Program-made: the position numbers and the translations under genes
Source: an uncultured Pyrinomonadaceae bacterium
Lineage (GTDB): Bacteria > Acidobacteriota > Blastocatellia > Pyrinomonadales > Pyrinomonadaceae
Direction: 5' to 3'
DNA length: 39,566 nt
NCBI GenBank assembly: GCA_902805935.1
Contig: CADCUR010000033.1
Location: 1-39,566 of the forward strand
Notes under the pieces: generated by a model
Told to the model about the DNA's origin: nothing
Database searches by the model: none
What the model saw: the letters and a program-made list of their open reading frames with translations, nothing else
In this document: positions 21,936-30,284 of the stretch, in pieces
Position numbering within the stretch: position 1 is the first letter of the stretch
Layout of the letters: each line of letters opens with the position of its first letter

Positions 21936-24557
21936 TCATTCTCCGAAATAATTTTCAAATCTCGTAAATTCCTTTAAAAACGCCAGCTTAACCGTTCCCG
22001 TCGGACCGTTGCGCTGTTTGGCAATCAAAAGTTCGGCAATACCCGCGTTTTCCTCCGAAGGTTTGTAATAATCCTCGCGGTAAATAAACGCCACTACGTC
22101 GGCGTCTTGCTCGATGCTGCCCGATTCGCGTAAATCCGACATCATCGGTTTCGGTGGATTACGCGCTTCGGGGGCGCGCGACAATTGCGACAAGGCGATT
22201 ATCGGCACGTTCATTTCTTTTGCCAAACCTTTCAGTTCGCGCGAGATTTGCGAAACTTCCTGCTGACGCGATTCGGTGCGCTTGCCGCCCGACATCAACT
22301 GCATATAATCAACGACAATCAAATCCAGCTTTTTCTGCTCGGTAAACAAACGTCTCGTTTTCGCGCGCATTTCAAGAACAGAAATGCCAGGCGTGTCGTC
22401 AATAAAAATCCTGGCGTTTGAAAGCGTCCCGATTGATTCGGCAAGTCTGCCCCATTCATCGCGCGTCAAGTATCCGGTGCGAAAACGGTGCGCGTCCACT
22501 CTCGCTTCGCTGCTGAGCATTCTCATCACAAGCTGCTCTTTCGACATTTCCAAACTGAAAACTGCGACGACGGCATTTTCGATTATCGCGGCGTTTTGCG
22601 CCAAAGTCAGACACAGAGCCGTATTGTGAACGCAAATGTCATTGGCGACAAAGTTATGCGTTTCGGGAATCGTTAAATCGTAAACCTGCTTTTCGCCCGC
22701 GTATTCAATCGAAACGATTTCGTCCCAATAAACTTCGCTCTGTGCCAGATTGTGCAGAGTTTCGTTTTCCAAAGCCGTTGCCAAATTCCCCAAACGTCCG
22801 CGCGTCGGCGCGCGTTTGCCGACGTGAATGTTGGTGTGTCCTTTGATTTCGGCGCGTTTCGCTAACGATGACCAAGATTCCGCGCCTTTCGACTGCTCGA
22901 TATTTTCCCAAATCTCGATTGGAATCAAATCGCCATTCGTTTGGTAATTTCTGTTTTCGAGCTTTTCTAAAGCGAGTTCCAGCGCCGCCTCTTTGCCGTA
23001 AATGCCAATTTCGCGGATAAAAGTTCTGATCGAAAGCGCGTCGGTAATATCAATCTGCCAAGCCGTATTTCTCCCGTCTTTGTATTTCACGGCGCGTTTT
23101 TTTAACTTGGCAATCACGCCGAAACGCAAAAGGAGATGCTGGACTTGGCGAATCATTTTTTCGCTGACCGAAGCATAACCGAGTTGGACTTGCTCAGTGG
23201 TGAGAACACTCGCCCAGCCGTCAGTTGCGAAAAGACGATTTAAGAAAACGGCAACGAGTTCTTTTTTTAATGTAAAAACTTCTTTCGGGATAAATTTCTG
23301 ATGACTGTCGCAGCCGTAAACGTCCAAAGTTTTCAGCCAAACGGTCAGAGCGTTTATGCCTCTGGTTTTACCGCCGACTTTGCGGATGCGAAAAGCGAAT
23401 GTTCGGTCGAATGAGTTTGATTGGACAGTTTCGACTCCGCCGAAATCATTAATGCTTTCAACGAAATCATTCTTTAAATTGACTTTACCAACCGTAAATT
23501 CGGGTGAATGTTTAGTAAGACAGCCATCGCCGAGCAAATATCCTAAAATTTTGACTTCGCACTCGCGCCACTCGTTTTGCCCGAAAACATTTATTATGCG
23601 CGGTACTGCGATTTTATTTCCGACTTTTAACTCTTCGAGTTTTTGCCAGCCGCCGATTGTTAAAAACGGGTGAGTTATCGTTGTTTCGATTTCGCGTCCG
23701 AGCTTGGTCGTCACTCGAAAAACGGGTTTGATTCCGTCGTCAATAAAATCGCTCGCCTCGATTTGCTTGAATTTGTAATCTTCTTTGAGCGTTAAAAGTT
23801 TCGCCGATTTTCGCTTGCAGATTTCTTCGATAGTTGCTGCGCTTCCGTCGCCCAAAACTACTAAGCTATTTGCTTCCAGGCACTTGCCCATTGACGGACG
23901 AGCCGCTACGATAATCAAATCGCTCGGTTGCAAGCCGGAAGTTTTCTCATCCAAATCTCGAAAGCCGGTCGAGAGTCCGGTCAGCGCGTGCGACTCGCGT
24001 TTGGCGAATTCCTGAACTTTTGCGAGAACTGTTTCGGCAATCGGCTGGACGTGCGAGAAACCTTGGCGGGTTTTCTCGTCGGCGAGCGCGAAAATCAACT
24101 GCTCGGCGTGATCGAGAATCATTTCCGCGTCTTCTTCTTCGGCGAGAGCTTCGCTGGTGATTTGATTGCAGACTTTGATGAGGTTGCGCGTCATCGCCTT
24201 GTCTTTGACGACTTTCGTGTAATCGAAAATGTCTGAAAAATGCGGCAAGCCGTAAGTTAAATTGGTGATGGTCGCCACGCCGCCGATCGAATCAATCGAG
24301 CCGTCTTTTTTGAGTTCTTCGCCGATGAGAATCGGGTCTATGCGCTCGCCTTTTTCAAACAGCGTCGTCATTGCTTTGAAAATGCGGCGATTGTTCGGCG
24401 AATAGAAATCTTCAGGAGAAATTTGTTCGATGGCTTGCGTGATCAGTTCGTTATCGAGGAGAATCGCGCCCAAAATCACGCGCTCGCTGTCGGGACTGGA
24501 CGGAAGCGGGCGTTCGAGAAATTGTTCGCGCGTTGTTTCAGGAAACGGTGTCGCCAT
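21936..24557 (-). CDS. dnaB: Replicative DNA helicase DnaB interrupted by an intein
   Basis: [10 protein letters not shown]|intein|[12 protein letters not shown]; downstream [23 protein letters not shown]. Confidence 0.97.
22623..23882 (-). other. Intein (420 aa) with LAGLIDADG homing endonuclease in DnaB Walker A
   Basis: Begins [36 protein letters not shown]-like [11 protein letters not shown] and [12 protein letters not shown], ends [21 protein letters not shown] before Thr of GKT. Confidence 0.96.
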
Positions 24558-29537: not shown

Positions 29538-30131
29538 TTAATTTCTCGCCAGAAATACTTCGGTGAAATAATATGTTCCGTCGGCTGTTACGGCGATGCC
29601 GATGCCCGATTCTTTCCAGCGGCTGTTGAGCAAATTGTCTCGGTGTTTCGGCGACTGCATCCAACGCTCGACGGCGAATTCGACCGGATTTTCAAAGCCT
29701 TGATTGTAGGCGATATTTTCGCCAATCGCCCGCCATTTTCTGACCCCGAACGAATCGGCGCGGTCGTTAACCATCGAGCCATCTATTCCTGTATGGCTGA
29801 AAAAATTATAATTCGCCATATTTTCCGAATGCAGCCGGGCGATTTTCGCCGCCTCGTCGCTCCATACTAATGCTTCCAATCGGATAACTGCCCGCTGTCG
29901 GTTAATCAGTTCAAACGCTCGCCGTTCGAGGTCGAAGGCGTTTGTCGCTTTTGATTTTTCGGCGGGTTTTGCCGATTCTGATGGATAAATTCGCGGGCGA
30001 TTCAAAGCCGAACGGTTTTCGCCGCTGCTGCTAAAAAGATACGCTTTGGGTTTTTCGCTGGCGGCGTTTTGCGGAAACGCGGTTTGAGAAAACGTCAGGA
30101 CGAGTAGAAACAAAAAAAATTTGTTTTTCAT
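29538..30131 (-). CDS. Secreted CAP (SCP/PR-1-like) domain protein
   Basis: Signal peptide; FELINRQRAVIRLEALVWSDEAAKIARLHSENMANYNFFSHTG, RAIGENIAYNQG, WMQSPKHRDNLLNSRWKESGIGIA. Confidence 0.92.
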   Translation of the reverse strand: MKNKFFLFLLVLTFSQTAFPQNAASEKPKAYLFSSSGENRSALNRPRIYPSESAKPAEKSKATNAFDLERRAFELINRQRAVIRLEALVWSDEAAKIARLHSENMANYNFFSHTGIDGSMVNDRADSFGVRKWRAIGENIAYNQGFENPVEFAVERWMQSPKHRDNLLNSRWKESGIGIAVTADGTYYFTEVFLARN

Positions 30132-30140
30132 TTAACCTCA

Positions 30141-30230
30141 CTTCGGTAATCAGACAATCTCAAACGCTTGTTTTGAGACTCACGATTTTGCGTCTTCCGC
30201 ATCGCTGCGGAGTTGCCGTTTATCGTTTAA
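30141..30230 (-). ncRNA. Candidate cyclic di-GMP-I (GEMM-I) riboswitch
   Basis: Minus strand ..AAACGGCAAC-[TCCGCA GCGA TGCGGA]-AGACGCAAAATCGTGAG-[TCTCAAA ACAAGCG TTTGAGA]-TTGTCTGATTACCGAAGTGAGG; GNRA-capped P2, conserved GACGCAAA, P3 and terminal TACCGA in the right order. Confidence 0.75.
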
Positions 30231-30284
30231 GGTTTTGGTTGATTCAGTAGAGTCAACCTTCTAATTTTGCTGTCGGCATTTTTT

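Follow-up and report, generated by a model that had tools for sequence, protein, structure and literature searches.

A full-length c-di-GMP-I riboswitch aptamer precedes the gene for a secreted CAP-domain protein in an uncultured Pyrinomonadaceae bacterium. It probably controls translation of this gene in cis, acting as an OFF switch through an anti-Shine-Dalgarno (anti-SD) helix that is linked to aptamer stem P1. The window, i.e., the whole 39,566-nucleotide stretch of DNA analysed, corresponds to contig 33 in an assembly of 3.87 Mb. Aptamer identity, conservation, covariation, the fixed position before CAP genes and the co-variation of the anti-SD and SD strands were computed; from these we infer the ligand, its binding, the direction of control and the translational level.

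The aptamer, its predicted ligand and the CAP gene

Two matches exceeded the curated scores when the whole window was scanned against all 4227 Rfam families, one to a tRNA and one to RF01051 (c-di-GMP-I/GEMM-I). The latter was full-length (30142-30227, minus strand, model positions 1-87 of 87) and reached 49.5 bits, with the gathering score set at 35 (E = 7.1e-7). When the scan was restricted to the leader, the same match had an E-value of 6.7e-9, and nothing besides RF01051 was found in Rfam with reporting down to E 1. The stability of the leader fold was exceeded by only one of 200 dinucleotide shuffles (z = -3.3). The first-pass annotation had proposed a GEMM-I candidate here and had named an RF01051 score above the gathering cutoff as support, which was obtained. 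All the parts it listed were located on the minus strand: GGCAA (30217-30213), P2 TCCGCA/TGCGGA closed by a GCGA loop (30211-30196), the junction GACGCAAA, P3 TCTCAAA/TTTGAGA (30178-30158), TACCGA, and the TGAGG that precedes the ATG. The features of the locus, with the basis of each in brackets, were as follows:

29538-30131, minus strand: gene for a secreted CAP-domain (CRISP/PR-1/SCP superfamily) protein of 197 aa with an N-terminal signal-peptide-like stretch (PF00188)
30134-30140, minus strand: UGAGGUU, the Shine-Dalgarno region and 3' strand of the anti-SD helix (sequence)
30142-30227, minus strand: c-di-GMP-I (GEMM-I) aptamer, RF01051, full length (cmscan)
30146, minus strand: C equivalent to Vc2 C92, which pairs with a ligand guanine (alignment; nearly invariant across the aligned leaders)
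30148-30187, minus strand: P3, with lower helix AAUC/GAUU and upper helix UCUCAAA/UUUGAGA (alignment; both helices covary in orthologues)
30189, minus strand: A equivalent to Vc2 A47, which stacks within the ligand (cmscan alignment; invariant across the aligned leaders)
30196-30211, minus strand: P2 hairpin UCCGCA-GCGA-UGCGGA with a GNRA tetraloop (sequence, cmscan alignment, compensatory changes in orthologues)
30217, minus strand: G equivalent to Vc2 G20, which selects between cyclic dinucleotides, G being the c-di-GMP type (model position 11, cmscan alignment; register according to PMC6274999)
30224-30225, minus strand: P1 core, CG pairing with the CG at 30144-30145 (paired in 100% of alignment cells)
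30228-30234, minus strand: anti-Shine-Dalgarno strand AACCUUA, an extension of P1 (fold, alignment pairing, permutation test)
30237-30258, minus strand: 5' hairpin GGUUGACUCUACUGAAUCAACC upstream of the anti-SD strand (fold)

The element shares with RF01051 the three-helix fold, the G20, A47 and C92 equivalents, and the logic by which cell-surface or secreted genes would be controlled. It departs from the family in the putative target gene, which encodes a CAP-domain protein, and in two structural details. The consensus has a GAAA loop on P2 and a CUAA-type internal loop, the tetraloop receptor of the model, in P3, whereas the window has a GCGA loop (30205-30202, minus strand) and a continuous UCUCAAA/UUUGAGA upper P3, with a UCU/AGA helix in place of the receptor. 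This UCU/AGA helix often accompanies GYGA loops among the Pyrinomonadaceae RF01051 aptamers. By family, the element is, as judged from its sequence, a genuine class I c-di-GMP riboswitch, ordinary in kind.

The first-pass annotation had taken the C preceding GGCAA to be at or near the ligand-selecting position and had left the ligand open. In the cGAMP riboswitch, A14 (the equivalent of Vc2 G20) is the last J1/2 nucleotide and lies directly before the P2 pair C15-G40 (PMC6274999). Here, the second G of GGCAA forms the first P2 pair with the C46 equivalent, which leaves the first G of this motif (30217) as the selecting base. The earlier register was thus off by one, too far 5', and the argument built on the C was rejected on the published numbering. 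Since the true G20 equivalent is G, c-di-GMP is the default predicted ligand. In the alignment, G30217, A30189 and C30146 were all of the c-di-GMP type, and mutation of G20 in Vc2 is reported to weaken binding by a factor of roughly 30,000 (PMC4744006). The host genome encodes eight GGDEF domains, of which seven have the canonical Asp, and has five EAL matches, which makes c-di-GMP turnover plausible.

It is very unlikely that 3',3'-cGAMP or another cyclic dinucleotide is the ligand instead. The GEMM-Ib riboswitches of Geobacter have the same fold and belong to the same family, but they are described as cGAMP-selective and carry A at the G20 equivalent, where the window has G; some Pyrinomonadaceae relatives have A or C. 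A host FHA-GGDEF protein does have, at the specificity position, the Ser characteristic of Hypr cGAMP synthases, and two relatives' genomes (G034 and G036) combine A20-type aptamers with a Ser/GGDEF Hypr-type domain. However, the Ser-bearing host domain has a GGEEF motif, which weakens the link to cGAMP, as the combination of Ser and GGEEF is reported to be inactive and absent in nature (PMC6456294), and the seven canonical GGDEF domains also argue for c-di-GMP. The FHA-GGDEF protein with Ser and GGEEF was conserved in most of the Pyrinomonadaceae genomes examined (L197, G000:C86:13873-14358; L219, L228, L248, L250, L251 and L253).

The CAP identity of the gene product was assigned by PF00188 on residues 74-192 (E = 3e-17, 64 bits against a Pfam gathering cutoff of 21.1) and, together with the signal-peptide-like N-terminus, agrees with the earlier description of a secreted CAP-domain protein. 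Ten nucleotides separate the 3' end of the aptamer from the CAP ATG. Downstream on the same strand lie a gene for a GHMP kinase resembling ispE and then a tRNA; a TPR protein is encoded upstream. A second RF01051 copy in the host genome precedes a putative secreted protein of at least 497 residues without a Pfam match. Elsewhere in the window (21936-24557, minus strand), an intein-like insertion, which may contain a homing-endonuclease motif, apparently breaks the frame of a replicative, DnaB-like helicase.

Conservation before CAP genes in Pyrinomonadaceae

RF01051 matches were present in 81 of the 119 Pyrinomonadaceae genomes (Acidobacteriota), and the downstream genes were read for 148 listed matches. 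Most of these fell into three groups, namely CAP genes, pilM-like genes and genes for long secreted proteins. Among the matches listed, at least 52 belonged to the CAP group, corresponding to 49 or more CAP genes from 12 genera, and nearly all the aptamers of the 49 genes stopped about 10 nt short of the start codon. Regarding the other two groups, RF01051 lay about 230-380 nt upstream of a gene with a PilM-like (type IV pilus) product at 30 listed loci (e.g., L019, L033, L041), and the genes for very long putative secreted proteins were often preceded by tandem c-di-GMP-I aptamers (e.g., L043, L045, L060, L061).

The named relatives of the CAP gene were mostly from Pyrinomonadaceae metagenome-assembled genomes. 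At L035, L036 and L037, RF01051 stood immediately before the CAP gene, and the same tRNA was found downstream of it at these loci and at L038. Close CAP orthologues without an Rfam match had the aptamer or a degenerate form of it in most cases, as judged by eye and by pattern search (e.g., G030, G044, G046, G056, G059, G060, G067, G071, G074, G079 and G084). The leaders of more distant CAP paralogues were unrelated and contained no aptamer. Consensus folding of 50 CAP-type leaders gave 13 aptamer pairs, 11 of which showed compensatory changes, P2 and P3 included; a lack of covariation in orthologous leaders had been named beforehand as evidence against the riboswitch. At one CAP riboswitch (L110, G041:C12), the C92 equivalent was replaced by U, with G still at position 20.

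The aptamer could in principle be decayed or non-functional, with the anti-SD stem merely fixing a constant low level of translation. Some relatives fit such a description: in G111, a CAP gene (L152 and L038, apparently one contig) has an intact SD/anti-SD pairing and a remodelled aptamer that Rfam misses. For the window this is exceedingly improbable, as its ligand contacts are all intact, its score is well above the cutoff and its helices covary.

The pairing of CAP genes with a c-di-GMP-I riboswitch is conserved across much of the family, within which the association was examined. In the open-licence literature, with subscription papers mostly outside the scope of the search, no relevant paper linking c-di-GMP riboswitches to CAP/SCP/YkwD proteins was found, and the association appears, provisionally, to be new.

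The anti-SD helix and the probable direction of control

The first-pass annotation had suggested a pairing of CCUUA with UGAGG. The pairing was found and was longer than claimed, joining AACCUUA (30234-30228) with UGAGGUU (30140-30134, both minus strand), and comparison with about 50 orthologous leaders supported it. This helix is separated from the ligand pocket by the two-pair P1 core, which was paired in all aligned leaders. GUGAGG was kept at the end of the aptamer in most CAP leaders, and many of them had a hairpin of variable sequence 5' of the anti-SD strand (mean z = -2.1; 28 of 49 below -2). In the alignment, 82% of cells in the anti-SD and P1 columns were paired, versus at most 52% when the strands were slid against each other. 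When covariation was tested with the register fixed, the anti-SD columns, which hardly vary, performed no better than shuffles. Because of this near-invariance, we used a register-free strand-swap test, in which the 5' strand of each leader was paired either with its own 3' strand or with those of other leaders. In the 16 leaders with a divergent SD or anti-SD, the mean pairing energy was -6.3 kcal/mol for own strands versus -4.7 kcal/mol (sd 0.39) for swapped strands, a difference reached in 0 of 20000 permutations (257 of 20000 for all 50 leaders), and these counts are not exact probabilities, as the leaders are phylogenetically non-independent and several divergent ones come from one genus. 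Divergence of the SD is thus accompanied by divergence of the anti-SD, as in the matched pairs UAAGG/CCUUA (the second copy in G000), GAGGAG/CUCCUC (G015) and UAAGA/UCUUA (G041). Taken together, the SD is held in a sequestering helix whose pairing is conserved in orthologues and which, according to the folding model, would be coupled to the aptamer. A transcription terminator was ruled out as the expression platform, since no terminator-like site was found between the aptamer and the start codon. No consensus sigma-70 promoter was found before the leader, the consensus being uninformative for Acidobacteriota.

In the proposed mechanism, the RNA would adopt the usual P1/P2/P3 aptamer, with P1 continued by AACCUUA/UGAGGUU and the SD placed in its 3' strand. 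Upon filling the junction, c-di-GMP would contact G30217, A30189 and C30146 and stabilise P1 together with the attached anti-SD helix, so that the ribosome would be excluded and CAP synthesis would drop. At low c-di-GMP, the helix would open more readily and the CAP protein would be made. In the folding model, the penalty for forbidding the anti-SD helix was 5.4 kcal/mol when the aptamer was left unconstrained and 7.1 kcal/mol when it was closed; the helix is worth more when the aptamer is closed, and ligand binding should therefore favour masking of the SD. Because the anti-SD helix extends P1, repression by c-di-GMP is the most likely direction, and we regard it as having a good chance of being correct under this model. 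The helix was nevertheless predicted to dominate in both states (about 89% paired without ligand versus 95%), which implies a small switch by equilibrium folding alone; a larger one would require a contribution from co-transcriptional folding or ribosome competition.

The Vc2 riboswitch (V. cholerae VC1722) is described as a translational OFF switch with P1 stability as the key factor, and its proposed control, in which the stability of P1 governs whether the ribosome-binding site is masked, resembles the arrangement proposed here (PMC9262584). The work cited as reference 61 in PMC9262584 places the masked site of Vc2 at a distance from the aptamer, whereas in the window the SD strand begins 2 nt past the aptamer, inside the P1 extension and without a separate expression platform.

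The same riboswitch could instead turn CAP translation on, if the bound aptamer strained or displaced the anti-SD helix while keeping the P1 core, or if the unbound fold masked the SD better. A precedent exists in Vc1 of V. cholerae, an activating c-di-GMP-I riboswitch (PMC4744006), and the unbound minimum-energy fold of the leader already masks the SD through an ACGAU/AUCGU helix that is incompatible with the aptamer. However, closure of the aptamer raises rather than lowers the stability of the anti-SD helix, and the ACGAU/AUCGU alternative, when the aligned leaders were inspected by eye, was confined to the window's own genus, for which reason we rejected it as an antiswitch. Activation is thus unlikely. 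With the helix dominant in both states and Vc1 activating, the OFF direction stays a prediction.

Variants at position 20 and significance of the association

Among the 148 listed RF01051 matches, position 20 was G in 141, A in four and C in three; one of the A20 matches (G009_C133) is atypical in its 5' part and possibly misaligned. Four of the seven non-G cases came from one genus (g3) and preceded the same CAP gene (L109, L128, L092 and L113), with C20 in G012, G013 and G016 and A20 in G015. In all four, C92 and the rest of the aptamer were kept, and the SD coupling was mostly retained; the CAP frame of G013 is truncated by the contig end. Such bases at position 20 suggest, at the level of sequence, that ligand specificity was altered or lost. 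In G034 and G036, GGDEF domains with Ser and GGDEF, the Hypr cGAMP-synthase signature, were found (L212 and L223, respectively), and other aptamers of both genomes carried A20. In G015, no Ser/GGDEF Hypr signature was found among the eight GGDEF matches, seven of which were readable. It is conceivable, though rather doubtful, that in g3 the selecting base of the same CAP riboswitch changed from G to A in one genome and to C in three, with C20 representing a natural GEMM-I variant for a new or altered ligand that arose in situ before an orthologous gene. If true, the specificity switch could be traced stepwise on one orthologous gene. The occurrence of G, A and C at position 20 before one such gene offers a chance to follow riboswitch ligand specificity as it changes.

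The placement of the SD within the P1 extension, without a separate platform, would represent a compact natural design. As bacterial CAP proteins are widespread but little understood, a conserved regulator offers a hint at their function. With the association described here, conserved in a large part of an Acidobacteria family, a secreted CAP-domain protein joins the genes associated with c-di-GMP-I riboswitches, and the predicted mode of control suggests that Pyrinomonadaceae produce less CAP protein at high c-di-GMP.
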